Of a DNA stretch of 64,000 nt, positions 2,937 through 19,289 are shown one piece after another. The DNA lies in contig NZ_KB893646.1 of the NCBI RefSeq assembly GCF_000374125.1, positions 186,001-250,000 of the forward strand, read 5' to 3'. The translations under genes were made by a program, and so were the position numbers. Within the stretch, counting starts at the first letter, position 1; every line of letters begins with the position of its first letter. Below the pieces are notes generated by a model that saw nothing but the letters and a program-made list of their open reading frames with translations, ran no database searches and was not told the DNA's origin. This DNA comes from Niabella aurantiaca DSM 17617 (lineage in GTDB: Bacteria; Bacteroidota; Bacteroidia; Chitinophagales; Chitinophagaceae).

Positions 2937-4982
2937 ATGAAAAAAAGATCGTTACTGCTTTCCTTTGTCTGCCTTTTAGCTGCCTTTCAACCTGCTTTTG
3001 CCCAGGATGATTTTGTTACCAGCACTGCCAGCACGGATGACCCGGGCTACCCTCTGTATCAAAAAGGATTTTATGCCGGGCTGCGTGGCGGCTATCTTTT
3101 AAAAAATAAATCCCTGTATGAGAACCCGCTTTACCGTCTGAACAGCGGCCTGTTTGCCGAAATAAACGGTGGCTGGAGAAAAAACGCCTTTGGATGGGAG
3201 CTGGCCCTCGGCATGCTCCGGGTTAAAAGAAACCACCCGGATATGCACCGCTTTTCAGCAGCAGCGGAAGATGTGCTCAAAGGCATGGGAAATGCGGCCC
3301 AGTTCCAGAATGCACTGGACTCCGGCCAAGCAGGGAACGATTATTTTACCTTCCCGGAAAACACACAGCAGGTAGCGGTCAGCAAGGACCTTAACAGCTA
3401 CTATGCCCTTACCGGCCCGCGCCTTTGGTTTGGCCGGCAAAAGCTGCAGGGCTCTGTTTATGCGCAGGGTGGTGTGGCAATGACCCGTTTTGGCTATTAT
3501 TATTTAAAAGGCAGCGGCGCTTCACCGGATAGCTATACCTATAGTATGAATAATGCGCTTGTTTCAAGCAGCCCTGTTGGAAGCGTTGCAGCGGGAAGTC
3601 CGACAACCGGTACCGCTACCGTTAATATAGAGGGCAATTACGAAAAATACGGCATGACCAGCGCCTTTTTTGATGCCTATAAAGCAAGCGGCGCCGCAAG
3701 CCCGGCAGATGTAAAAGAAAAAAACAAAATGCAGTTTCTGGCCCGTGGTGGTGCCAGCCTGGAGCTTTTCCTTTCGACCAAAGCCTCCTTATCGCTGGGC
3801 GTGGACTACTGGTACCTCCCCTCACCGGAAATGAAAGGCCAGTCGGCCTCCGATGGTACAGCAAGCGGCGTCCTCAAGCCCTATATTGTTAAAGACCCCG
3901 CGTCTGAGCGCGACCAGCCCTACCAGGACAAATATGCTTTTACAAAACCCTATACAGAAAAGAAGAACCTGGGCTTTTTAAGCGCCAGCCTGGGCGTAAA
4001 GATCTGGCTGGGCAAAAAACGGCCCGCGCCGGTGAACGATCGGCCCGTTGTGCAGCAGCCGATACCCCCTGCGGATAAAAACCTGGCGGTAAAAGTCATC
4101 GACAAACCCACCGGAAAACCATTGGACGGTGTAAACATCAAAATCGAAAAAGAAGGCGATGAATCCATTATTGAAACCACGACGATGGAAGATGGCAGCA
4201 TTCCCCTGCAAAGAGCATTAGCTGCGGGCAATTACAAGATCACCGGTATTAAGAATGGCATCAAAACCACCGAGGCTACCGTAGCCGCGGCCGATTTTTC
4301 CGCACCTGCCGCCACCATTTACCGGGAGCTGATCCACAACGATATCCGGTTTACCCTGGCGGGTAAGACCATCAATAAAGCCGATATGAGTCCGCTGCCG
4401 TTTATCCAGACATCCCTTACCAATTTAAGCAAGGGCAGCGCCGGGCAGAAAGCCTCCGATTCCATCGGCCGGTTCTATTACCAGCTGGATCAGCAAACCG
4501 ATTATAATGTCATCGCGCAGAATAAAGGCTATTTTTCCAACCGGGAAAAGGTTACCACAAAGGGGCTGAACCGCAGCGAGGTCATCTATGTGAACCTGGC
4601 GCTGGAGGTGATGGAGCTGAAAAAAGATGCGTCCATTGTATTAAAAGATATCTATTACGATTATAACAAATGGAACATTCGCCCCGATGCGGCAATGGTG
4701 CTGGATAACCTGGTAAAAACACTGGAAGAAAATCCCACGGTTAAAATTGAGCTTTCGTCCCATACAGACAGCCGGGGCGGGGATGCCTTCAATATGACCC
4801 TCTCCCGCAAGCGAGCGGAATCTGCGGTGCGCTACCTGGTAAGTAAGGGCATTGCGGCGGACCGGCTGAAGGCGATGGGCTACGGAGAAAGCCGGTTGCT
4901 GAACGACTGCGGCAACGATGTACCCTGCAGCGAGGAGCAGCATCAACTGAACCGGCGCACGGAAATAAAAGTGCTGGAGTAA
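2937..4982 (+). CDS. OmpA-family outer-membrane protein with carboxypeptidase-like repeats
   Basis: A 681-residue envelope protein. Signal peptide at residues 1-23 (ending AFAQ). Residues about 35-360 look like an outer-membrane beta-barrel, with alternating aromatic strands such as GFYAGLRGGYLL and LGFLSASLGVKIWLG. Residues about 375-560 contain two carboxypeptidase-regulatory-like segments (VKVIDKPTGKPLDGVNI and FTLAGKTINKADMSPLPF). The C-terminal 115 residues are an OmpA/MotB peptidoglycan-binding domain, with DIYYDYNKWNIRPDA and the motif SSHTDSRGGDAFNMTLSRKR. The likely role is to tether the outer membrane to peptidoglycan. The architecture is usual for Bacteroidota. Confidence 0.92.
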   Translation: MKKRSLLLSFVCLLAAFQPAFAQDDFVTSTASTDDPGYPLYQKGFYAGLRGGYLLKNKSLYENPLYRLNSGLFAEINGGWRKNAFGWELALGMLRVKRNHPDMHRFSAAAEDVLKGMGNAAQFQNALDSGQAGNDYFTFPENTQQVAVSKDLNSYYALTGPRLWFGRQKLQGSVYAQGGVAMTRFGYYYLKGSGASPDSYTYSMNNALVSSSPVGSVAAGSPTTGTATVNIEGNYEKYGMTSAFFDAYKASGAASPADVKEKNKMQFLARGGASLELFLSTKASLSLGVDYWYLPSPEMKGQSASDGTASGVLKPYIVKDPASERDQPYQDKYAFTKPYTEKKNLGFLSASLGVKIWLGKKRPAPVNDRPVVQQPIPPADKNLAVKVIDKPTGKPLDGVNIKIEKEGDESIIETTTMEDGSIPLQRALAAGNYKITGIKNGIKTTEATVAAADFSAPAATIYRELIHNDIRFTLAGKTINKADMSPLPFIQTSLTNLSKGSAGQKASDSIGRFYYQLDQQTDYNVIAQNKGYFSNREKVTTKGLNRSEVIYVNLALEVMELKKDASIVLKDIYYDYNKWNIRPDAAMVLDNLVKTLEENPTVKIELSSHTDSRGGDAFNMTLSRKRAESAVRYLVSKGIAADRLKAMGYGESRLLNDCGNDVPCSEEQHQLNRRTEIKVLE

Positions 4983-4986
4983 GATT

Positions 4987-5026
4987 CCTGTTAGGTTTTG
5001 TCCGCCGCGGGGGCCGGCCTAACAGG
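4987..5026. repeat. inverted repeat of the CCTGTTAGG family, possible terminator
   Basis: CCTGTTAGG (4987-4995) and CCTAACAGG (5018-5026) form a 9-bp perfect stem around a GC-rich loop just after the OmpA-family stop codon. The same motif recurs at 15538-15581 and 63949-63958. There is no long T-run, so termination is only a possibility. Confidence 0.6.
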
Positions 5027-5030
5027 TTCC

Positions 5031-5195
5031 TTATCCTTCAGTATATTTAGATCTATGCATGCTGATGTTGGGAACAGAGGTGTTAAAAAGTTCGGCCAGT
5101 TGTTGCCGGTTCATCCGCACAGAACCGTCTTTGACATATAATACATTTAATTTTTGCAAAAATAAGAAGAGGAACTCTTCGTTTTTGCCTGTCAT
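5031..5195 (-). pseudogene. remnant of a RhuM-family protein, N-terminal fragment
   Basis: About 54 codons starting MTGKNEEFLF. The segment VRMNRQQLAELFNTSVPNIS matches the conserved N-terminal helix-turn-helix-like motif of RhuM-family (virulence protein / Fic-associated) proteins, which normally continue for about 250 more residues. Here the frame stops after SMHRSKYTEG, and the usual downstream sequence is not found in the other frames near 5030. I read this as a decayed gene end left at the border of the accessory region. The frame is open upstream to 5276 but that part is not protein-like. Confidence 0.55.
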
Positions 5196-5276
5196 TCTGA
5201 CAAAATCGTCCCTTGAAATCGTCCATGTTAATCCCTTAAAAAAGGGATACACGAGGGATACAGGAGCACTGGACAA

Positions 5277-5846
5277 ACACGGGACAAAGGATGCAAATAA
5301 TGCACAATAGTTCAGCCCTCCCGGTTTGGTTTAAAATAAGGCAATTTGAGGTGTTGGAATGTTGTTTGAATGTTTTATTTAGTGCCGAGCAAATAGCCGC
5401 TATGTGGCCTTAAAATCGGCCTGGCGGCCGTTGAAAACTCAACAGATCTTCCAGCTGCTGCAAATCCTGAAAACCAGAAAAATAGCGCCCTGTCATCCTG
5501 GCATTGTTTGCAAAAAGGTAAAAAAATGGTTGTTCTTGCCAACCAAATCGGTAACGGTAAGCAACCGGCCCGGCTACCTGTAGAGATGGGTTTACCGCCC
5601 ATTATTTTTACCAGCCGCGCATCGCCGTTACCCACCCCAGGGAGCCATCAGTTCCCTGCATCTTGCTCCATATACCCGGGGTCAACCGATCCTCCAAACA
5701 AGCATCTTCCAAAAAACAAGACCCCTCAAATACCCCCGGCATCATCCACCCCCAAACTTGTCGTTTTTACACGGCTTCCATTCCCCAAAACCACTCCATC
5801 TTTGTAGCGTTAAAAAGCAAAAGCACACAACCCTAAAACAGGCGTT
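5277..5846. other. intergenic stretch with a possible degraded coding remnant
   Basis: No intact gene is seen. On the minus strand between about 5395 and 5560 one frame reads FGWQEQPFFYLFANNARMTG and then YFSGFQDLQQLEDLLSFQRP before a stop. This looks like real but broken coding sequence; upstream it shifts frame near 5560 (KIMGGKPISTGSRAGCLPLP in the neighbouring frame). I do not recognise the family. The rest holds no hairpin or promoter that I can support. Confidence 0.35.
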
Positions 5847-6725
5847 ATGAACAATAGAACCAACACAAAAAATCTTTTCAACTCCATACGTTTAATCATC
5901 ATTATTATGCTTACAGCAGCCACCACCCACGCGCAACAACACGGCTCCCCGGCCGATAGCAGCTATGCCCCCGTTAACGGCATCAAGGTTTATTATAAGG
6001 TATATGGACAGGGCCAGCCCCTGGTATTGTTACACGGGGCTTTTATGACCATCGATGGCAACTGGGGCCAGCTCATCCCCGAGCTGTCAAAAAACCACAA
6101 GGTGATTGCCCTGGAATTACAGGGGCACGGGCATACCCCGTACTCCGACCGCCCGTTATCCCACGCCACCCTGGCCGCCGATGTGGCCGGTGTAATGGAT
6201 CACCTGCATATAGACAGTGCCGATGTGGTGGGCTATAGTTTTGGTGGCGCCGTGGCCTACCAGTTTGCCATACAATACCCCAGGCGCTTAAAAAAGCTGG
6301 TCATCATTTCTGCCACCTATAAAAGCGAAGGCTGGCTGCCCCAGGTAAACGAAGCCTTTAAACAAATGAAGCCGGAACTGTTTGACAACTCACCCATGCA
6401 GGCCGCCTACAATGCCGTAGCGCCGGATACCACCAAATGGATCCCCTTCCTGCAGCAGATGATCGCCTCTGCCCGGCAGCCCTTTAACCTGGGCGATGCC
6501 AACATTGCCAAAATTACCGCCCCCGTGCTCATCATTGCCGGTGACAATGACGGGCTGGATAAGCTGGAGCTCATCAAAACCTACCAGCTGCTGGGCGGCA
6601 ATATAATGGCCGGTTTTGGCCCCGCGCCCGCATCCCAGCTGGCCATTGTACCCGGGCAGGGCCACGTAAGCCTTATGGAACAAACCACCGCGCTTTTAAA
6701 TCTCCTTAACGGTTTTTTAAAGTAG
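5847..6725 (+). CDS. secreted alpha/beta hydrolase
   Basis: A 292-residue alpha/beta-hydrolase-fold enzyme with an N-terminal signal peptide (ending THAQ, residues 1-30). The oxyanion region LLHGAF (61-66) is followed by LQGHGHTPYSDRP, then the nucleophile elbow GYSFGG with Ser131. The Asp candidate is in VLIIAGDNDGLDKLE, and the catalytic His is in PGQGHVSLME near the C-terminus. All triad positions are present, so it should be active in the periplasm or outside the cell. The substrate cannot be told from sequence; it resembles esterase and C-C hydrolase relatives. It stands alone, with repeats on both sides. Confidence 0.88.
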   Translation: MNNRTNTKNLFNSIRLIIIIMLTAATTHAQQHGSPADSSYAPVNGIKVYYKVYGQGQPLVLLHGAFMTIDGNWGQLIPELSKNHKVIALELQGHGHTPYSDRPLSHATLAADVAGVMDHLHIDSADVVGYSFGGAVAYQFAIQYPRRLKKLVIISATYKSEGWLPQVNEAFKQMKPELFDNSPMQAAYNAVAPDTTKWIPFLQQMIASARQPFNLGDANIAKITAPVLIIAGDNDGLDKLELIKTYQLLGGNIMAGFGPAPASQLAIVPGQGHVSLMEQTTALLNLLNGFLK

Positions 6726-7203
6726 GAGGAGGGGCATCCTCATCGCGTATCATCGTCATCCCCACTGGCCCCCCGGGCGGCGGCGCATCATCGTCATCCT
6801 GACCGAGCCTGAAGGGCGATCGGAAGGATATCTCCGGCGGCGGTTTTTATTAACCGAGCTGCAGTGCTTATGGCACCGGTCTGGAGCCTGTCCCACCAAC
6901 GGCGGGATCGCACTCTTGTGCTGTGGAATATGGAGCGGCAGAATCGCACACTTAAACGCCTCAATATATATCCGCCATCGATACCGGCCGCCTGCGACCG
7001 GTTGATGGCGGTTTCTTTGGTTACCTTGGTTTGGTGCCTGCCCCGCAGAAAGCGGGACCGAACTCTTGTACTGTGAAATAAGCATCCGCCATCGCCAACA
7101 CCTGGGGCCATCGGCCCCATACATAGCACTTCCTGTCTCCCGAAATAGTACCTTTTTGCCCAAGCCGGAAGGCCTGCACGCGTTAGAGCCTGTACTACAA
7201 ACA
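6726..7203. repeat. intergenic repeat cluster (dispersed elements)
   Basis: No gene is supported. Two copies of ATCATCGTCATCC lie at about 6750 and 6787. Two copies of a roughly 65-bp element (6864-6930 and 7023-7080) share TGCCTG or GAGCCTGTCCC, a GCGGGA segment and ACTCTTGT.CTGTG.AATA. A third copy is at 9693-9759. In copies two and three a small stem CCCGC/GCGGG surrounds AGAAA. These repeats create spurious short open frames containing RDRTL. Confidence 0.7.
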
Positions 7204-8046
7204 CTATTTATTTTTTGCACGGGTATCTTTCAATATCTTTTTTGCATCGCCATCCAGCTTTCGTTTCAGTTTTGCTATGTCTTCTGCCGGGGGCAGTGTT
7301 TCCGGTTGTACGCCCCGCTCGTTAAGCATATCTCTTACCGCTTTATTATTGTCTACATGCTCTTTTGATATTTGCTGGCCGCCTTTCAGGTCTTTTTCCA
7401 CCACGTTATGACTGGTTAGCTCCGTAGCAAAATCCTTGGCTTTAATGGTAAGGGTAGGCAAAAAATCTGCCAGGGCACGATTAGCAGGCACGCTCAGCTT
7501 CTTTTTCATATCCGCCGTGCTAAAGCCGCCGAACAATGCCTGGTCTCCTTTGGAGCGGATCAGCGCAAAACTTTGCTCATCCACCCCACGCTCGTAAATA
7601 ATGCCCGACAGTTTTTTCTCCGATTTTGTCAGTTTTTCCCGGGCCGATACTCTTGCTACTTCCAGCAGGCGCTGTTCAATAATTTCCTGCTTGCGGGTTT
7701 GTACGGCAAAATAAGTTTGAGCAAAAGCAATGGCCGGTTTGGCCGGGTCGCCGTTCTGCGCTACCAGGTAGCAGGCATAGCGGGTAAGGGCAATGTCCTG
7801 AACTTCGCGTTGAGACCCGCTCCCCAATAAGACCATTTTCGTGACATCACGAAAATGGTCCGTCACTGCTTCCCCGGCGGCTTCGCAGGATTTACGTGCT
7901 TTATCCAGCGCATTCAAAAAATTTTCCCAGCGGCTATAGCCCAAAATAGGCTGTAGCTCCCGGGCGCTCCAGCATTCCACGCCTTTAACTTCATAGCAGG
8001 CTGCTTCAAATTTTTGTAATAATTCGGTGATCAGTTCTTTTTTCAT
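7204..8046 (-). CDS. dinD: DNA-damage-inducible protein D
   Basis: A 280-residue protein of the DinD family. It begins MKKELITELLQKFEAACYEV, has the BRO-N-like core CWSARELQPILGYSRWENF, then the conserved segment DIALTRYACYLVAQNGDPAK and the C-terminal HNVVEKDLKGGQQISKEHVD with NNKAVRDMLNERGV. In enterobacteria DinD is SOS-induced and inhibits RecA-mediated strand exchange; here the function is inferred from family only. The ATG at 8046 is chosen because homology starts there; the frame is open upstream to 8109 in repeat-like DNA. It lies in the accessory region between two dispersed repeat copies and is often mobile. Confidence 0.9.
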   Translation of the reverse strand: MKKELITELLQKFEAACYEVKGVECWSARELQPILGYSRWENFLNALDKARKSCEAAGEAVTDHFRDVTKMVLLGSGSQREVQDIALTRYACYLVAQNGDPAKPAIAFAQTYFAVQTRKQEIIEQRLLEVARVSAREKLTKSEKKLSGIIYERGVDEQSFALIRSKGDQALFGGFSTADMKKKLSVPANRALADFLPTLTIKAKDFATELTSHNVVEKDLKGGQQISKEHVDNNKAVRDMLNERGVQPETLPPAEDIAKLKRKLDGDAKKILKDTRAKNK

Positions 8047-8100
8047 GGTTATACTTTTAGGTAAAGTTAAAAATAAAGCTTGATGAATACTGCAGCAATA

Positions 8101-8186
8101 CCCGGTCATCCCCCCAGCGAGCGGGCGGAGGGATCTTCCCGCTACCTTGTGCCTTCTTGCGCAGGCCTCCCGGCCGGTGTATATGT
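8101..8186. repeat. dispersed intergenic repeat, element B copy 1
   Basis: Shares with 9790-9885 the blocks CCCGGTCATCC, CGGAGGGATCT, a TCTTGT or CCTTGT segment and CCCGGCCGG.GTATAT, with differences in between. It lies just upstream of dinD, so it may influence that promoter region. Confidence 0.7.
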
Positions 8187-8277
8187 GGCAGTTTCAGGTA
8201 ATCCTTGATAATTGGATTTTGGTCTCATTCGTTATCCAAATATTGAAGAGATACCTCTACTGTGGAAGACGAGGCAC

Positions 8278-8304
8278 AAAAAAACCGCCCTTACCGGGCG
8301 GCTT
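8278..8304 (-). terminator. intrinsic terminator of the coiled-coil gene
   Basis: Read on the minus strand: GCCGCCC, a short loop, GGGCGGTTTTTTT. The stem is 8285-8290 with 8296-8301, and the T-run is the A-run at 8278-8284 of the plus strand. It is placed right after the stop codon at 8313. Confidence 0.85.
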
Positions 8305-8312
8305 TCCTGGGG

Positions 8313-8729
8313 TTATACCAGACTGTCCTTTTGGGCCTGCACTTCGGCTATAAAGGTGGCGGTCTCCTCCAGCTGCCGCAGCACCTGCTGCAGGTCGTAC
8401 TCCTTTTCCAGCAGCGCTACCGCGCCGTAGTTGGCCTTGCGGTCTGTAAGCAAAAAAATGCTGTACTCCGCACGCTTGCGTTTTTTAACGTTCTCCTCCT
8501 TTAGCTCGCCCTCCGGCAGGCCGGCAATAATGGCATCCAGCGTGGTTAACTCCGCCTGCTTGGCCGCCAGCTCGGTAGAAATTTCAACGGAGTTTTCCGC
8601 ATAAATTTCCTTTTGCCTTTCTATGGAAAGTTTTTTCCATTCCAGGTCTTTTTGCTCCTTAGTGGCAATGTTCAGCACCGCATTACAGTCGGTAACGGTT
8701 GTCAGCTGCGTGGTTGAATAATTTGGCAT
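8313..8729 (-). CDS. hypothetical coiled-coil protein downstream of an XRE regulator
   Basis: A 138-residue protein without signal peptide or membrane segment. It is almost wholly helical, with charged heptad-like runs (KEQKDLEWKKLSIERQKEIY, then a stretch with LKEENVKKRKRAEYS) and a Glu/Gln-rich C-terminus (LEKEYDLQQVLRQLEETATF). I do not recognise the family. It is 87 bp downstream of the XRE regulator on the same strand and ends at a clear terminator, so the two probably form an operon. It may bind or modulate the regulator, but that is inference from order only. Confidence 0.75.
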   Translation of the reverse strand: MPNYSTTQLTTVTDCNAVLNIATKEQKDLEWKKLSIERQKEIYAENSVEISTELAAKQAELTTLDAIIAGLPEGELKEENVKKRKRAEYSIFLLTDRKANYGAVALLEKEYDLQQVLRQLEETATFIAEVQAQKDSLV

Positions 8730-8816
8730 TTTCTATAAATTTTTAAGTGAAACAATACCGCAAACCTACCCCGCTTTATACGCCACCGCAGCCGCCCGGC
8801 CGGTATTTAAAATTGT

Positions 8817-9353
8817 TTAACAGCCGGTAGCCTTGCTGCAGGTTTGCAGCGCCGCCTGCTGCCTTGCTCTTAAGGTAGCCAGCTTATACTCCGCCACCAG
8901 CTGCCTTGCGGGGCCACAGCGGTCCAGCCCATCCAGTATATCCAGCTCCATATTTTGCAGCAGGCTCATTTGCCGGGTAGCGGGGGTGGCCTCCTCCATC
9001 AGCCGCTGTACCATGGCCAGCTTTTGGGTAAGCAGGTGGTGGCGTTCCTGCATTTTGCTAAGGGCCATACTTATACGCAGCGCATCCGCCGCCGCCTTAC
9101 GGGCATGCGCGTTCAGCGCTTTTTGCATCTTTAGCAGGTGTACCTGCTGGCGGGCCTGGGCAGGCTGCCCCGCCACCGCTTTTAGCGGCTGCGGGTGCAG
9201 CAGCTGCAATTGCAGCTGTGCCAGCCTTGCAGATGCTTTTTGCGGCAGGTTGCGCTGCCCTCTTTCATACATACAAATAACGCTGGTAGATACGCCTATA
9301 AGGGCCGCCAGCTCCTGCTGGGTAAGGTGCAGTTGCGCTCTTAAGGATTTCAT
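8817..9353 (-). CDS. XRE-type helix-turn-helix regulator with long helical tail
   Basis: A 178-residue protein. Residues 1-45 form a Cro/CI-type helix-turn-helix (LTQQELAALIGVSTSVICMY then ERGQRNLP). The remaining 130 residues are helical, rich in Ala, Gln, Leu and Arg, and end LRARQQAALQTCSKATGC. The length and tail are unusual for a plain XRE repressor and suggest a dimer or partner interface. The upstream region carries a 19-bp palindrome and several TTCACAA motifs, suggesting autoregulation. It is followed by a coiled-coil gene in a likely operon. Confidence 0.82.
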   Translation of the reverse strand: MKSLRAQLHLTQQELAALIGVSTSVICMYERGQRNLPQKASARLAQLQLQLLHPQPLKAVAGQPAQARQQVHLLKMQKALNAHARKAAADALRISMALSKMQERHHLLTQKLAMVQRLMEEATPATRQMSLLQNMELDILDGLDRCGPARQLVAEYKLATLRARQQAALQTCSKATGC

Positions 9354-9385
9354 AGCTCATATAGATTAACGGTTTTTCAATACAT

Positions 9386-9498
9386 GGTTGTGAATGAGTG
9401 CTTCGTAAATTTTTTAAATATTTACACCGCGGCTTTTCACAATTTGTGAAAACGGTTTTTGTAAAAAGCATTTTCATTCACAACTTTTTCATTCACAA
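9386..9498 (-). promoter_or_regulatory. operator-like cluster upstream of the XRE regulator
   Basis: TTTTCACAATTTGTGAAAA (9434-9452) is a palindrome with 9-bp perfect arms around one central base. Two direct copies of TTTTCATTCACAA lie at 9471-9483 and 9486-9498, and an inverted half-site TTGTGAATGA lies at about 9388-9397. The shared core TTCACAA, in both orientations within about 110 bp of the start codon, looks like an array of binding sites for the XRE protein. Confidence 0.6.
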
Positions 9499-9692
9499 AA
9501 ATTGCTGGTGGGCAGGGCCTGGGCATGGTGGGTTTTACGCGTTGCAGTCATAGCTTTGTTTTTTAAAGGGTTATTAATATAGGGAGCCTGTAGGCCAAAA
9601 GCAGCTGTATGGTTCCTGTACTAAAGCTACTACAAATTATTAATATTTAGCATGTAATGGCTTGTTAAAAAGGGCGGTATGGGCCCGGCTTA

Positions 9693-9885
9693 GTGCTTAT
9701 AGCAGCGGTGTGGAGCCTGTCCCGCAGAAAGCGGGATCGCACTCTTCAGCGGTGGAATAAGCGTCAGCCAGTGCTACCCGCCCGCAACACCCGGTCATCC
9801 CGACCGGCCCCGCCCAGCGGGCAAGCGGAGGGATCTCTCCGGTATCTTGTACCTTCCTGGGCCGTCTTCCCGGCCGGCGTATATT
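9693..9885. repeat. adjacent dispersed repeats (element A copy 3 and element B copy 2)
   Basis: Element A (9693-9759) matches 6864-6930 and 7023-7080 and contains the stem CCCGC AGAAA GCGGG (9721-9735). Element B (9790-9885) matches 8101-8186. Their juxtaposition here suggests they may belong to one larger mobile or decaying unit. Confidence 0.7.
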
Positions 9886-10423
9886 CGTAATTAGGCAGCT
9901 GCTTAAAGCGGACTGCTGTAGCTACGGTATCGGCAAAATAGGATAAAGCTTATTAACAACGCCGCACTGGCCGGGGACCTGTGCGAGTTAGATTGCGGGA
10001 GCCTGTACATGCTTTTTAGCAAGCCGCACCCGGAACGTTCTCATTGAGGTAAGCGGCCCATCGGCTTCCAAATCGCCGCTCAGGACCAGGTGCTTTAACC
10101 GGGAAGAGGCAAATAGCTCGCACAAAGGAGTACGCCCATCGCTGAGTCCCATGGTTTCCCCCAATTATGCGCGCCGCAGGTTTCCACCGCCGGCTGCAGT
10201 AACCCAGCACATTGTCGTCGTATACAGAAAGGTCTTTAAACCGCAATATCCCCTTTTCATCGCACTCCCTAAATAATTCCGGCCGGGAGGCGATCTGAGA
10301 GTAACAAACAAGAATCAACAATGGTCAAAGATTGTAGAACTATCCAAAAGGGAGTTTGTTAAGGTCGCAGCATAGCGAAAATCTGAAATGCACCCGCCCT
10401 AAGGACAAACACATAATTTTAAA
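9886..10423. other. intergenic stretch with a possible degraded coding remnant
   Basis: No intact gene. On the minus strand, 10016-10321 reads as about 100 codons (including ELFRECDEKGILRFKDLSVY), while the neighbouring frame over about 9970-10130 gives ELFASSRLKHLVLSGDLEAD and ends shortly after. Both pieces look protein-like but do not join in one frame, which suggests a frameshifted leftover gene of unknown family. The composition falls sharply to A+T-rich after about 10330. Confidence 0.3.
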
Positions 10424-10541
10424 TAAATTTGCTATATTAGCGACAGCAACTTGTCATGAACAGCATTTGAGTTTAATAACTGCCAAAAAAACTGTCTTAA
10501 TATTGTGTTGCCATAACTGCTTTTAATGTATTTATTAAAAG
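10424..10541 (+). promoter_or_regulatory. candidate promoter and dyad upstream of the two-gene cassette
   Basis: TAAATTTG (10424-10431) fits the Bacteroidota -7 box TAnnTTTG, though no clear -33 TTG is seen at the expected distance. CTTTTAAT/ATTAAAAG (10520-10527 and 10534-10541) is a perfect 8-bp inverted repeat with a 6-bp spacer, ending 33 bp before the start codon at 10575. It could be an operator for one of the nearby XRE proteins. Confidence 0.4.
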
Positions 10542-10574
10542 TAAAGATATTCTGGAATTAACCTAAACTGTACA

Positions 10575-13088
10575 ATGACCCAAATAGACAATGCAGCCCA
10601 AGCTTTCGAACTTTATAAGAGTTTATATCACCGATACCTGCAAACTGACCTAAGCGAATCTGATACCCGATCTAAATTGATAGATGCTATTTTGATAGAT
10701 GTATTAGGATGGGAGGAGGGCGACATTCAAAGAGAAGGTCATGTTGAGTCGGGCTATTATGATTATCGAATTTCTGTCCCAGGCATTCACTTTATTGTTG
10801 AAGCAAAAAGGCAGCTTAAAGAGTTGACCCTTCCCTCGCATCATAAAAGAGCAACTATAAATACTTTGCTAAAAGGCAACAGTGAGGTTATAAATCAAAT
10901 TAGAAATTATGCTATCGATGAAGGGATACAATATGGTATAATCACGAATGGATATCAATTTGTAGTTCTAAAGATATTTAATAACGATGGCAAACCATGG
11001 AAAGATAACTCATGTCTTATATTTCAAGACGTCGATACAATCGAAAGCCGGTTTATTGAATTTTTCGAAAATTTATCAAAGTATTCTGTTGTAAACAATG
11101 GGGGTTTCAAATTTGATCTTCCTATAAATAATGTAGAATACAAAACAATCTTATCGACTCTAATTGATAGAGATAAAGAGCTTATTCGAAATTCACTTAG
11201 CGGCAGTATAACACCTCTTATTGATACGGTCTTTGGAGAGATTTTTTCTGAGGAGCGAGAAGATGATAAGGAGTTTATAAAGAAATGCTTTGTTGAAAAT
11301 GAAGAAACAAAAAAGAATAAAGATGAAATTGAGAGATTATTTGGAGACTACGCACCACAACTTTCACAAATAATCCCCGCAGTTAATTCATCAAGTATAG
11401 CATCTCAAATCAGTGAGGAATTAAATGCGGAAGAAATCAACATAAAAAATAGTTATCCCCCAAAACCAATCATTATAATTGGCTCCAAAGGGGCAGGAAA
11501 AACTTCATTTATAAATCATCTATTTAAATACAAGTTGGAGGATAAGGAATTAGAAAATCACTTTATTGTATATATAGATTTCAGAAAATTCTTTGAAGGT
11601 GCTACTAATTTCGAACCTGAAAAAATTGCTAGCGAAATATTGGAGTCGATTTATAACAAGTACGAAACTTTTGAATTTCATTCATTGAAGGTTCTGAAAA
11701 GAATCTATTTTAAGGAAATAAAACGAAACGATGATAGTATTTGGTTATATGACAAAACGAACAATGAGGAAGCATATAACACTAAACTTTCAAGTTTTTT
11801 GGAAAATGAAAAGAAGAACTCCTTTAGCCATCTTGAAGCTCTTTCAAAATACATTATTAGAGAACGGCGAAAGAGATTAGTTGTTATTATTGATAACGCA
11901 GATCAATTTAATGATACTATTCAAGAAAAACTTTTCATTTTCTCTCACTCTCTAACCAAAGCAACTCTTTGCGGATCAGTAATTTCACTTCGAGAAGGGT
12001 ATTATTATAAATGGCAAAATTCTCCCCCTTTCGACGCGTATGAGAGCAATGTGTATCATATAACGGCTCCTAATTATATGGAGATTTTGCAAAAGCGAAT
12101 AGATTTTGCGCTAGAAAAAGCGCATCTTTTTGAAACGAAAATTCGTGGAACTAATCAAAAAGGTATTAAGTATGAGTTCCCATCAGGTTATATTGTTGAT
12201 TTTCTTTCAGGACTTAAGCATTCGCTATTTTCTAGCGCAAACTCTGAGTTAATCAGTTTTTTAAATCATACTACTTATCCAAATATTCGAGAGGGACTAA
12301 AGGTCTTTAAATCATTTTTGACATCAGGACATACAAAAGTGCAAGAATATATTTTAAGAGAGCAATATAAAAATGAACATAACAAATTACACTCAATTAT
12401 TCCAACTCACGAATTTATTAAGTCAATTGCGCTTCAAAACAGGCATTACTATAATTCTCAGATTAGTATCATAATAAATGTATTTGTTCCGCCTATAGAT
12501 TCGACCGATCATTTTATAAAATTATACGTTTTAAAAGATTTAGATGAGCATATAGAACAACGTAGTTATACTAGTAAGTTTATGTCAAGCAAAACCTTGT
12601 CGGAAAAGCTAAATTCACTAGGATATAAGATCAATAGCATTAAATCGGCAATTAGCGAATTACTGAAGCAGTCCCTGATCGATACAGATGAACAAATTTC
12701 TGATGTCGAGTGGAAAGATCTGCCCAATGAGTTTAATTTGAGTTTAACTGCTAAAGGACACTATTATTTGAAAGAATTGGTAAATCGCTTTCATTACTAC
12801 GATTTGATTTTACAAGATTGCCCAATTTTTAATTCAGTGGAATTTGATAAATTAAAAACGGCCTTTCCTCTTTCAAATGAAAATGGGATTAGATATCTTC
12901 CAGATAGAAAGCAATGTGTGACAGAATTTATTTCATATTTGCAAAATATGGAACAACGCCAATCTAATCAGGTTAAAACCGTTTACGGCAATTTAATGGA
13001 CACAATTGGATGTATGGTTCATGGAGAGATCGAAAAGATGAATGGTAATACAAATAAGTATTACCATAACAATACTAGTGCTCGTTAA
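10575..13088 (+). CDS. HsdR-N-like nuclease and P-loop ATPase fusion, candidate defence protein A
   Basis: An 837-residue cytoplasmic protein. Residues about 1-150 resemble the HsdR N-terminal PD-(D/E)XK fold: LIDAILIDVLGW, then Asp63 in GYYDYRIS and E76-x-K78 in HFIVEAKRQ, followed by QIRNYAIDEGIQYGIITNGY. A P-loop ATPase follows, with Walker A GSKGAGKTS (303-311) and a Walker B-like VVIIDNADQF (Asp440). Residues 450-560 contain SLREGYYYKWQNSPPFDAY and a YHITAPNYMEILQKRIDFAL segment typical of STAND- or KAP-like ATPases. The C-terminal third is helical with probable winged-helix character. Codons are A+T-rich, unlike both flanks. Gene B begins 31 bp downstream. I do not recognise it as a named defence system; a defence role is inferred from domains and setting. 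Confidence 0.85.
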   Translation: MTQIDNAAQAFELYKSLYHRYLQTDLSESDTRSKLIDAILIDVLGWEEGDIQREGHVESGYYDYRISVPGIHFIVEAKRQLKELTLPSHHKRATINTLLKGNSEVINQIRNYAIDEGIQYGIITNGYQFVVLKIFNNDGKPWKDNSCLIFQDVDTIESRFIEFFENLSKYSVVNNGGFKFDLPINNVEYKTILSTLIDRDKELIRNSLSGSITPLIDTVFGEIFSEEREDDKEFIKKCFVENEETKKNKDEIERLFGDYAPQLSQIIPAVNSSSIASQISEELNAEEINIKNSYPPKPIIIIGSKGAGKTSFINHLFKYKLEDKELENHFIVYIDFRKFFEGATNFEPEKIASEILESIYNKYETFEFHSLKVLKRIYFKEIKRNDDSIWLYDKTNNEEAYNTKLSSFLENEKKNSFSHLEALSKYIIRERRKRLVVIIDNADQFNDTIQEKLFIFSHSLTKATLCGSVISLREGYYYKWQNSPPFDAYESNVYHITAPNYMEILQKRIDFALEKAHLFETKIRGTNQKGIKYEFPSGYIVDFLSGLKHSLFSSANSELISFLNHTTYPNIREGLKVFKSFLTSGHTKVQEYILREQYKNEHNKLHSIIPTHEFIKSIALQNRHYYNSQISIIINVFVPPIDSTDHFIKLYVLKDLDEHIEQRSYTSKFMSSKTLSEKLNSLGYKINSIKSAISELLKQSLIDTDEQISDVEWKDLPNEFNLSLTAKGHYYLKELVNRFHYYDLILQDCPIFNSVEFDKLKTAFPLSNENGIRYLPDRKQCVTEFISYLQNMEQRQSNQVKTVYGNLMDTIGCMVHGEIEKMNGNTNKYYHNNTSAR

Positions 13089-13119
13089 AATAACAGAAAC
13101 GGTATGATTCTATTATAAT

Positions 13120-14547
13120 ATGAAGATAAGTAAGCTATTCAACCTTGATAAATCTCAAGCTGAACTTGATTTTGTTGATATTGATATAACAAAGGATTTG
13201 CCATTATTTCTTGACCCATTTTTTTTAGGTAACCGACAAGATAAGTGGTCTTTAGAGGCAACTTTAACTTTGAAGAGTTTCTTCCAGAAATTAATTGACT
13301 TGACAAAGGCCGGCAAAGAAAAAGAGGCGAGAGAACTTTTTGAATTCCTGCATGAACCCAATTCAACATGTTTAGGTATGTCTTTAGATAAGCCTGACGG
13401 GAATGGTGTGGGCAAAACGGATACTTCAAAAATTTATAAAAATCTTTTGAAAAGTAGAGCTATACAATCGGGACTTTTACAAGATATAGAGGACAATATT
13501 TTATTTGTGGATGGTTTTGGGAAAGATAAGTTATCTGATATGACAACCAATATTATTCGAAAACATCTCATACAATATACCGGAGCCCAGTGCGATCTTC
13601 ATAACATCCCGCTTACCGATAACGTCCCATCGGAATTTTACTGGAACAGACAGGAAGGTGCATGGAAAGCCGAATATACCAGAATGCTTGTGGTGGAACA
13701 AAGGAAAATATTGCTTGTGCCTAAAGGTGTTGTTTCATTTCGTGAATCATATACGCCAGAAAAATATTACAATCACTTTGTTTTGAATTTTCTTCAAAAC
13801 GAGCATTTAAAGTTAAATACAGCCTTGGTAAAACAAAGGAAAGGCGGTAAGAAATATGTTACAAAAAAGGATATTAAAGAAACCACTCCACAAACGAAAG
13901 AATTTTTAAGACAGTTTACTACAAACCACCCGGAGGTTTTGGCAGCGTTCAAGAAAAAGACCAAGAACAATTCAGTAAAAAATATAGAAATATCAGATAT
14001 AAGTGTTAAAAATGTTTGTAAACTGCTTGGAGAACAATTGGTGAATATCCCAGCTGGAGTTAGGAACGCATCAGCCTTCCACAATAAAATACTTGGAATA
14101 CTTGAACTTATTTTTTATCCCAAATTGATTTTTCCTATGAAGGAGAAAGGAATTCATCAAGGTAGAAAGCGAATCGATATTACATTTGACAATGCTGCTG
14201 ATACAGGAATCTTATATAGGTTATCTGAAAAAATGAGATTGCCTTGTCAATATATTTTCATTGAATGCAAGAATTATACGTCTGATCCAGAAAATCCGGA
14301 GTTAGACCAGCTGGCAGGAAGGTTTGCCGTTAATCGCGGCACAGTTGGATTCTTAATTTGCAGAAGTTTTACTAATAGAAAATTATTTATTGAGAGATGT
14401 AGAGATACATACAAAGATGGACGCGGGTTAATTATTCCTTTAGTAGATCAAGACATTATTAATCTTTTGGATAACCATAATGAATATAATGATTCTTTTT
14501 TTGACAAATATCTTTCTGATATTATTAGGGAAATAACGGTTAATTAG
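13120..14547 (+). CDS. restriction-endonuclease-like protein, candidate defence protein B
   Basis: A 475-residue cytoplasmic protein. The N-terminal two thirds have no domain I recognise; conserved-looking motifs include FVDIDITKDLPLFLDPFFLG, FVDGFGKDKLSDMTTNIIRK and VVEQRKILLVPKGVVSF. The C-terminal part has a PD-(D/E)XK pattern: GRKRIDITF (Asp353), then FIECKNYTS with E382-x-K384, then LDQLAGRFAVNRGTVGFLIC, as in Mrr-like nucleases. It lies 31 bp after gene A and probably shares its transcript. The stretch around 13570-13760 is less A+T-rich than the rest, hinting at mosaic origin. It ends 6 bp from the convergent XRE gene. The substrate and trigger are unknown. Confidence 0.82.
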   Translation: MKISKLFNLDKSQAELDFVDIDITKDLPLFLDPFFLGNRQDKWSLEATLTLKSFFQKLIDLTKAGKEKEARELFEFLHEPNSTCLGMSLDKPDGNGVGKTDTSKIYKNLLKSRAIQSGLLQDIEDNILFVDGFGKDKLSDMTTNIIRKHLIQYTGAQCDLHNIPLTDNVPSEFYWNRQEGAWKAEYTRMLVVEQRKILLVPKGVVSFRESYTPEKYYNHFVLNFLQNEHLKLNTALVKQRKGGKKYVTKKDIKETTPQTKEFLRQFTTNHPEVLAAFKKKTKNNSVKNIEISDISVKNVCKLLGEQLVNIPAGVRNASAFHNKILGILELIFYPKLIFPMKEKGIHQGRKRIDITFDNAADTGILYRLSEKMRLPCQYIFIECKNYTSDPENPELDQLAGRFAVNRGTVGFLICRSFTNRKLFIERCRDTYKDGRGLIIPLVDQDIINLLDNHNEYNDSFFDKYLSDIIREITVN

Positions 14548-14553
14548 AGCATG

Positions 14554-14775
14554 CTACTTCCGATCTACCAGTTTCACACCCTCACACACATACTCCAATA
14601 ATTCACCCGGTTTTACACCAATAGCTAAGGCAATCAGATATAATTCTTCAACCCTTAATTTGGCAGTAGAATTAATGGTCAATTCGCTTACTCGCGGTTT
14701 GCTTAAACCCGTTTTACGCGCTACTTCCGATTTATTGGTCGATCGGGCCTGTAAATATTCTCCAAGCCTTGTCAT
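14554..14775 (-). CDS. small XRE-family regulator 1
   Basis: A 73-residue protein that is little more than a Cro/CI helix-turn-helix: MTRLGEYLQARSTNKSEVAR, then KTGLSKPRVSELTINS and a C-terminal helix pair ending CEGVKLVDRK. It is convergent with nuclease gene B (6 bp between stop codons) and lies 31 bp downstream of a second small XRE gene on the same strand, so the two are probably co-transcribed. Likely a repressor of itself or the neighbouring cassette; this rests on position. Confidence 0.85.
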   Translation of the reverse strand: MTRLGEYLQARSTNKSEVARKTGLSKPRVSELTINSTAKLRVEELYLIALAIGVKPGELLEYVCEGVKLVDRK

Positions 14776-14806: not shown

Positions 14807-15022
14807 TTACTTTTTAGGACTTACCAGCAACTCACAAACTTCCACACCCAGCACCTCCGCAATTTTAAACAGCGTTTCAACCGTGGGCTGGTTATCATTC
14901 GTGCACCATTTGGATACAGTAGTTCTGCTTACGCCCAATTGTTCCGCCAGCCAAATATTTGACTTTTCATTTTCCAGCAAGACTATTTTAATCCGATTAT
15001 AGCGTTTCTTTTGTGTAGCCAT
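14807..15022 (-). CDS. small XRE-family regulator 2
   Basis: A 71-residue helix-turn-helix protein: NIWLAEQLGVSRTTVSKWCT then NDNQPTVETLFKIAEVLGVE. Proteins of this length and sequence type often accompany restriction or other defence genes in Bacteroidota. It is the first gene of a two-gene minus-strand unit that runs toward the nuclease cassette. The sequence just upstream (15028-15049) carries an imperfect dyad, GTTAATTAC ACTA CTAACTAAC, suited to autoregulation. Confidence 0.87.
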   Translation of the reverse strand: MATQKKRYNRIKIVLLENEKSNIWLAEQLGVSRTTVSKWCTNDNQPTVETLFKIAEVLGVEVCELLVSPKK

Positions 15023-17891: not shown

Positions 17892-19289
17892 ATGATGCGG
17901 CAATATATAACGATGATCCTGCTGTTCTTGCTGCCTTGCCTGCCCTGCGGCGCACAGGAAAAAGCCCCGCAAGCGCGGCCCAACGTACTTTTAATATTGA
18001 CCGATGACCAGCGCCGGGGCGGTACTTTTTTATCGCCGGAGCTGCTGAGCACCCCGGTGCTGGACAGCCTGGCGCACAGCGGCATCCGCTTTATAAACTC
18101 CTATATTATGGGCGGCACCAGCGGGGCGGTATGCGCGCCCAGCCGGGGCAGCATGCTTACCGGGCGCAGCGTGTTTGAAATGGGCGGCAACTACGGGCAA
18201 AAGATACCGGAGGCCCTTATAACCCTGCCCCAATACCTGAAGGCCAACGGCTACTATACCTGGATGACGGGCAAGTGGCACAATGAATACAGCTCCTTTG
18301 TAAGAAGCTTTAGCGGCGGCGCTTCCCTTTTCTTTAACGGCATGGGCCCGCAGTATGATTTTAAGGTGAACGATTTCCGGCAGGATGGCGCTTACAGCCC
18401 GCAAAACAGCCGGCTGGTAAAAGGCATACATGCTACGGACCTGTTTGCAGATGAGGCCGTTCGCTTTTTGGAAAACTATAAAGGCCGCCAGCCCTTTTTT
18501 GCTTACGTGGCGTTTAAAACCCCGCACGATCCGCGTACCGTGGCGCCCGCATTTGAACACCGGTACCCGGCAACAGGTGTTCAGCTGCCGCCTAATTTTT
18601 TAAAGCAGCACCCGTTTGATAATGGCGATCTGAAGATACGGGATGAAAAGCTGGCAGCTTTTCCCCGCGACAGCGCGGAGATCCGGCAACATATTGCAGA
18701 CTACTATGCCATGATCACCCATATTGACCAGCGCATCGGCGATATCCTGAACACATTGAAAAAGCAGGGACTGCAAAAAAACACCCTGGTCATTTTTGCC
18801 GCCGATAACGGGCTGGCGGTGGGCCAGCACGGCCTGATGGGAAAACAGAACCTGTATGAGCACAGTGTAGGTGTGCCGTTGCTGTTTTCCGGTCCGGGTG
18901 TAAAACCGGGGCAAACCAGCAAAGCGCTTACCTATCTTACGGATATTTTTCCCACACTTTGCGCTTACCTGCACCTGCCGGAGCCGCAGGGGATGCTGGG
19001 TCAAAGCCTGCTGCCTGCGCTGGGCGGTGCACGGTACAGGGGGCGTAAGTCTGAGTACTATATTTATGCCCACTACCAGCGCGGGCTGCGGATGGGCGCT
19101 TACAAGCTGATCGAATACCTGGTAAAAGGCCAGCGGCATACCCAGCTGTTTAACCTGGACAAGGATCCCTGGGAGCAGCGGAACCTGACCGGTGAAAAAA
19201 GCATGCAGAAACAAATACGGGCAATGCGCACAGAAATGAAGCGGTGGCACCAGCTGGCAAAGGATCCCATGCCGGTGTTTTATAAGTAA
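17892..19289 (+). CDS. sulfatase family protein (arylsulfatase-like)
   Basis: A 465-residue exported sulfatase. Signal peptide MMRQYITMILLFLLPCLPCG, then the N-terminal metal ligands LTDDQ (Asp38, Asp39). The formylglycine motif CAPSR (Cys81) is followed by GSMLTGR, so the cysteine-type activating enzyme would be needed in the cell. Further active-site segments are TGKWHNEYSS, TPHDPR and FAADNGLAVGQHGLMGKQNL. The protein ends with a typical C-terminal subdomain including LFNLDKDPWEQRNL. It would cleave sulfate esters of polysaccharide or other organics in the periplasm; the substrate is unknown. The ATG at 17892 starts the signal peptide. Transcribed alone. Confidence 0.92.
   Translation: MMRQYITMILLFLLPCLPCGAQEKAPQARPNVLLILTDDQRRGGTFLSPELLSTPVLDSLAHSGIRFINSYIMGGTSGAVCAPSRGSMLTGRSVFEMGGNYGQKIPEALITLPQYLKANGYYTWMTGKWHNEYSSFVRSFSGGASLFFNGMGPQYDFKVNDFRQDGAYSPQNSRLVKGIHATDLFADEAVRFLENYKGRQPFFAYVAFKTPHDPRTVAPAFEHRYPATGVQLPPNFLKQHPFDNGDLKIRDEKLAAFPRDSAEIRQHIADYYAMITHIDQRIGDILNTLKKQGLQKNTLVIFAADNGLAVGQHGLMGKQNLYEHSVGVPLLFSGPGVKPGQTSKALTYLTDIFPTLCAYLHLPEPQGMLGQSLLPALGGARYRGRKSEYYIYAHYQRGLRMGAYKLIEYLVKGQRHTQLFNLDKDPWEQRNLTGEKSMQKQIRAMRTEMKRWHQLAKDPMPVFYK

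Follow-up and report, generated by a model that had tools for sequence, protein, structure and literature searches.

Within a 64,000-nucleotide stretch of the Niabella aurantiaca DSM 17617 genome (contig NZ_KB893646.1, positions 186,001 to 250,000; hereafter the window), two adjacent genes on the forward strand, here called A and B, encode predicted nucleases, the first of them fused to an ATPase. The original prediction, made from the letters of the window alone, took the pair for a candidate two-gene defence system. Its coordinates and strand for both genes and the 31 bp that separate them are correct, and its description of the pair as A+T-rich relative to both flanks holds, with a G+C content of 0.31-0.36 for A and B vs about 0.50 on either side. 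It had also seen no methyltransferase or specificity subunit nearby, and we likewise found no HsdM or HsdS gene apparent among the open reading frames (ORFs) from 5 to 22 kb; together with the AAA+ type of the motor in A, this agrees with the view that the locus is not a classical restriction-modification (R-M) system. The two genes and their parts are:

10575-13088, + strand: gene A, 837 amino acids, an HsdR-N-like PD-(D/E)XK nuclease and AAA+ ATPase (phrog_14719)
10575-11100, + strand: nuclease domain of A, approximately residues 1-175, with E28, D63, E76-x-K78 and Q108
11190-12765, + strand: AAA+ ATPase and winged-helix region of A, approximately residues 206-730, with Walker A at 303-310, Walker B at D440, and R473, R508 and R572
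after approximately residue 730 of A, + strand: C-terminal part of A, a short helical region
13090-13119, + strand: promoter-like sequence immediately 5' of B, agreeing with the consensus at 10 of 12 bases
13120-14547, + strand: gene B, 475 amino acids, a conserved N-terminal domain and a C-terminal FokI-like PD-(D/E)XK nuclease (PDC-M36A, phrog_27295)
13120-13975, + strand: N-terminal domain of B, approximately residues 1-285
13993-14544, + strand: nuclease domain of B, residues 292-475, with D353, E382-x-K384 and Q397

Lying 31 bp apart, A and B are probably co-transcribed in this genome. The promoter-like match ahead of B hints faintly at a separate start for that gene; across the region, such matches are fewer than in shuffled sequence.

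The catalytic motifs first noticed in the two proteins are not due to chance, because the residues named are those conserved across relatives. In A, the nuclease residues E28, D63, E76, K78 and Q108 and the ATPase residues G303, G306, G308, K309, D440, N441 and D443 are invariant in an alignment of 78 sequences, most of them only 17-25% identical to A, which bears out both the HsdR-N-like pattern and the Walker motifs of the original prediction. Structure prediction, suggested at the time as a check, points the same way. The AlphaFold2 model of A (predicted local distance difference test score, pLDDT, 86.9) has the helix and strand order of a PD-(D/E)XK nuclease at residues 28-133, with D63 on the second strand and E76-x-K78 on the third. 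Against the PDB, the N-terminal profile gave just one match with E<=1, to 3h1t, a type I restriction R subunit, and among 38 family members HSDR_N_2 was matched in 12 and HSDR_N in 5. The motor, aligned over approximately 250-330 residues, matches the folds of Cdc6/Orc (Z 13.7), BrxC (13.3), TnsC (13.0) and RdrA (12.8), scores that are ties and establish a common motor fold, not a function; CED-4/Apaf-1 folds are also related and score below Orc/Cdc6. Pfam KAP_NTPase (PF07693) matches A with 31.1 bits (curated cut-off 20) and 16 of the 38 members at E<=0.01. Many KAP NTPases typically span the membrane within or close to the NTPase domain; no membrane-like segment was detected in A, where no 19-residue window exceeds a hydropathy of 1.6 (maximum 1.18). 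The approximately 110-230 residues that follow the motor are of winged-helix and helical make-up in the model, and the 38 members gave no match to TPR-type or other repeat families and no recognizable modified-base reader domain. The motor being AAA+, an SF2 motor is not present.

In B, an alignment of 18 sequences shows at least 90% conservation at D353, E382, K384 and Q397, and all four are invariant when the nuclease domain is aligned separately, in a set that includes a Paenibacillus protein with an unrelated N-terminal half. The AlphaFold2 model (pLDDT 81.4) matches the FokI/Nt.BspD6I fold at residues 292-475 (Z 12.1-12.5 over approximately 160 residues); conservation and fold thus uphold the second PD-(D/E)XK pattern that had been proposed for the C-terminus of B. 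The Paenibacillus protein, encoded on a plasmid (L021, 3071-4528; L and G numbers are our labels for loci and genomes), carries this nuclease domain at 45% identity, attached there to an unrelated N-terminus, which marks the nuclease as modular. The N-terminal domain of B has ten invariant positions in 25 sequences, D26, E79, D136, S139, D140 and N144 among them, and it is also found alone, as proteins of approximately 302-317 amino acids, on small plasmids of Bacillus, Acinetobacter and Staphylococcus (L019, 4001-4948; L020, 3980-4894; L022, 3538-4446). Since these lone copies keep the six residues just named, the domain probably has a function of its own.

The survey of whether homologues of A and B occur together, set beforehand as a test that could refute the two-gene proposal, separated the two proteins. 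Relatives of A were collected by profile in viral contigs (18) and genomes (80) and by similarity in plasmids and E. coli, giving 101 loci, of which 86 extend at least 2 kb downstream and 71 do so in both directions; relatives of B came from viral contigs (18), genomes and plasmids, giving approximately 24 loci. No B was detected in the A loci, either by profile (0/101) or by tblastn (0/98, the loci from the viral-contig and genome scans), no A in any of the approximately 24 B loci, and no recurrent partner gene of A across its loci. A single A+B system as a general rule is therefore rejected, and the original prediction is not supported in this respect. The closest relative of A (67-68% identical, L109) stands alone in Flavipsychrobacter, within a prophage-like cluster of tail genes that were recognized by eye from sequence, and the closest relatives of B (64% in L023 and 62% in L086) stand alone too. 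From an A homologue to the next downstream ORF the median gap is 257 bp, and a same-strand ORF lies within 50 bp of only 5 of 98 homologues.

Each protein has its own distribution. The A family occurs in at least 12 phyla as a single gene, often in prophages, and its E. coli members are found singly in Rac-type and lambdoid prophages. Some relatives of B lie in phage-related elements (P2-like prophages and P4-like satellites), others in type I R-M operons or on small plasmids. Genes matching Phage_portal (Pfam) adjoin A in three loci (L039, L046 and L049) and B in two (L097 and L098), which fits the gpA-gpQ position of P2, a defence hotspot (PMC9122126). In a P4-like satellite, the interval from the psu-type genes to the integrase, which is the other published hotspot (PMC9122126), holds an E. 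coli relative of B, and another such relative belongs to a satellite-like element with a P2-family capsid gene. The type I R-M operons contain two B relatives, one closer and one more distant (L024 and L028); three distant relatives that may belong to BREX loci (L025, L027 and L030) are left out of the argument. In the first of these loci, a type I R-M system, PDC-S02, a dCTP deaminase and the B relative follow one another (2967-11099), a dense stacking of candidate defences. INPHARED phage records gave no match to A or B, although viral contigs do match; a single-sequence scan of viral contigs with B gave no match. The survey places the two proteins in separate, widespread and probably self-sufficient defence families, and because each has a family of its own, separate defences are likelier than one system of two parts.

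The chromosomal setting of the pair has been conserved in the genus. An α/β-hydrolase gene brackets the slot on the left and a small XRE gene, together with a gene for a 170-amino-acid protein, on the right. In the window, the genes around A and B are:

5847-6725, + strand: α/β-hydrolase gene, left-hand anchor of the hotspot in relatives
14554-14775, - strand: XRE-type regulator, right-hand boundary of the hotspot, kept across the genus
14807-15022, - strand: second small regulator, XRE/CI-type

The cargo between these anchors differs from genome to genome:

this genome: A and B
G010: HsdR-Mrr-HsdS-HsdM, a complete type I R-M system
G014: Schlafen-type helicase, MazG-like protein, dCTP deaminase and RmrA
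G006 and G008: Schlafen helicase and MazG-like protein, with only a fragment of the left anchor in G008
G005: 1091-amino-acid DEAD/ResIII helicase

Because the orthologous slot carries other defence genes in relatives, this is direct evidence of a genus-wide defence hotspot with exchangeable cargo, and the accessory region of the original prediction, a defence-type slot holding two nucleases of which one is fused to an ATPase, is confirmed in that form. The Schlafen group 3 helicase, with AbiO/Nhi-like PADLOC matches and beside a MazG-like gene, is common cargo, with copies in three related genomes (L189, 7978-9918; L201, 2881-4845; L204, 6434-8377). At the left edge of the hotspot, the intergenic sequence at 9790-9988 of the window can be read as a small dispersed element, with two copies close to this locus in G014 (L189) and one in G005 (L187). 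Further left, a gene at 7204-8109 (- strand), which we take to be DinD-like, is intact here, near-identical in G016 and broken or fragmentary in several related genomes. To the right, a sulfatase gene lies at 17919-19289; with 93 matches in this genome, the sulfatase family has undergone a large expansion.

The account that we favour, with somewhat better than even confidence, is that A and B are independent, self-contained DNA-cutting defence proteins stacked in one chromosomal hotspot, not an obligate pair. Domain make-up, conserved catalytic residues, stand-alone occurrence and hotspot location are all observed; an anti-phage activity, its trigger, the oligomerization of the proteins, their substrate and whether the cell dies are inferred. 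In A, an ATPase of the Orc/Cdc6, TnsC, RdrA and STAND kind would most likely bind a cue of infection such as phage DNA or DNA in complex with protein; the winged-helix region may make this contact, and ATP-dependent assembly would then activate the N-terminal HsdR-like nuclease to cut DNA. In B, the N-terminal domain would sense infection, or be switched by it, and control the C-terminal FokI-like nuclease.

Alternatively, A could be a modification-dependent (type IV-like) or sequence-directed restriction enzyme whose ATPase scans or translocates DNA, and not a STAND-like switch triggered by infection. This possibility draws on the HsdR-N-like nuclease domain, on the presence of DNA-binding Orc/Cdc6 and TnsC among the nearest motor folds, and on the annotation of one relative as 'Predicted type IV restriction endonuclease'. 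Set against the missing modified-base reader domain and the absence of an SF2 motor, it seems unlikely. That the two genes form one system in this lineage, in which the ATPase of A senses invasion and nucleic acid is cut either by both nucleases or by B as a second effector, appears more doubtful again: the same-strand spacing, so rare among A homologues, and the shared hotspot cargo of similar low G+C are what such a system would predict, but in the survey neither protein was found with the other and their closest relatives are solitary. Finally, many relatives reside on prophages, satellites and small plasmids, so A and B might chiefly benefit their carrier elements, in competition between plasmids or prophages, in stability or in regulation, with anti-phage defence of the host not their primary role; this is very improbable given the chromosomal defence contexts, here and for the B relatives embedded in R-M loci, and given that competition between elements is itself often defence.

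Several points also weigh against independent defence proteins as an explanation. Location in a hotspot is guilt by association, as hotspots of defence genes also carry non-defence genes (PMC9122126). A homologues usually have more space to their neighbours than the 31 bp found here, and A and B could be functionally linked in this genome. The nuclease domain of A matches the PDB only weakly in sequence (E 0.01), and since ATPase matches filled the fold-search list for A, that search says little about this domain. For the N-terminal domain of B, there was no sequence match in the PDB and no solved fold was prominent in the whole-model search. Lastly, the PADLOC label PDC-M36A points to a candidate with more than one gene, so B may ordinarily require a partner.

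The original prediction knew no named system for the pair, and this stands for A but not for B. B matches PADLOC PDC-M36A over residues 3-450 (E 2.6e-40), and its full length corresponds to phrog_27295; an E. coli record calls one relative a DUF8370 family protein. A, which in full length is phrog_14719, of unknown function there, has no convincing model in PADLOC-DB 2.0; its partial or weak matches (mad8, DrmMI, RM IIG and similar) are confined to few members and were dismissed. Beside B, no further PDC-M36 component turned up, and none of the PDC-M36 models is matched by A. In the literature searched, which did not extend to preprints and most subscription journals, there was no paper on A or B, no mention of PDC-M36 or DUF8370, and no named system for A. 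Two published systems were ruled out: the protease-activated nuclease pair (PMC12799240) as a home for B, its nuclease being of the MBL type and not PD-(D/E)XK, and the IbfA-like ATPase-TOPRIM (PMC12111858), whose domains differ. Sequence matches that link the B profile with Na,K-ATPase beta, and A with small GTPases or LRRK2, are short or reflect generic P-loops.

What is new, on well-supported grounds, is A as a variant of nuclease-ATPase defence; B belongs to a candidate family already listed, and the locus does not add a new two-gene system. Of the two, A is the more novel, a compact single-gene nuclease-ATPase family that has no sensor repeats and whose motor resembles those of Orc/Cdc6, RdrA and STAND proteins. 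Its invariant core spans at least 12 phyla and E. coli prophages, yet the family lacks a convincing PADLOC-DB 2.0 model, and those members whose annotation was inspected are labelled hypothetical protein, P-loop NTPase fold, or restriction-like of type I/IV. Since the family is present in E. coli prophages, its function is directly testable in laboratory E. coli. The N-terminal domain of B is met by itself on small plasmids, and joined to nucleases in R-M operons and satellites. We tentatively consider, with more doubt than confidence, that A founds a widespread, compact form of single-gene immunity in which a replication-initiator-like AAA+ motor of the Orc/Cdc6 type with a winged-helix region, not a repeat sensor, recognizes invading DNA and directly switches on an HsdR-type nuclease, and that the N-terminal domain of B is a new sensor or enzyme domain that recruited a FokI-like nuclease. 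The locus itself is a clear case of a defence hotspot with interchangeable cargo in a genus of Bacteroidota, and of tight gene spacing that does not amount to one system.

Compared with known systems, A resembles Avs and other nuclease-STAND proteins, which are single-gene defence proteins: it joins an N-terminal nuclease to a STAND/Orc-like P-loop ATPase in one polypeptide carried as prophage or defence cargo. A is only approximately 830 amino acids long, however, with no TPR-type match and with a winged-helix and short helical region at its C-terminus. A STAND protein with an Mrr-type nuclease does occur in defence hotspots (PMC9122126). RdrA of RADAR and BrxC of BREX share the motor fold of A, which Orc/Cdc6 and TnsC match equally well, whereas A brings a nuclease of its own at the N-terminus, and its surroundings lack RdrB, Pgl and Brx partners. 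HsdR has a similar N-terminal nuclease (HSDR_N), but the motor of A is of the AAA+/KAP type, not an SF2 translocase, and HsdM and HsdS are missing from its surroundings. B resembles the type IIS enzymes FokI and Nt.BspD6I in the fold of its nuclease domain and differs from them in its N-terminal half, an unrelated conserved domain, and in having no methyltransferase partner nearby. B also has a counterpart in PDC-M36A, which it matches along its own length, and its relatives are set in type I R-M operons as well as in P2-like prophages and P4-like satellites.

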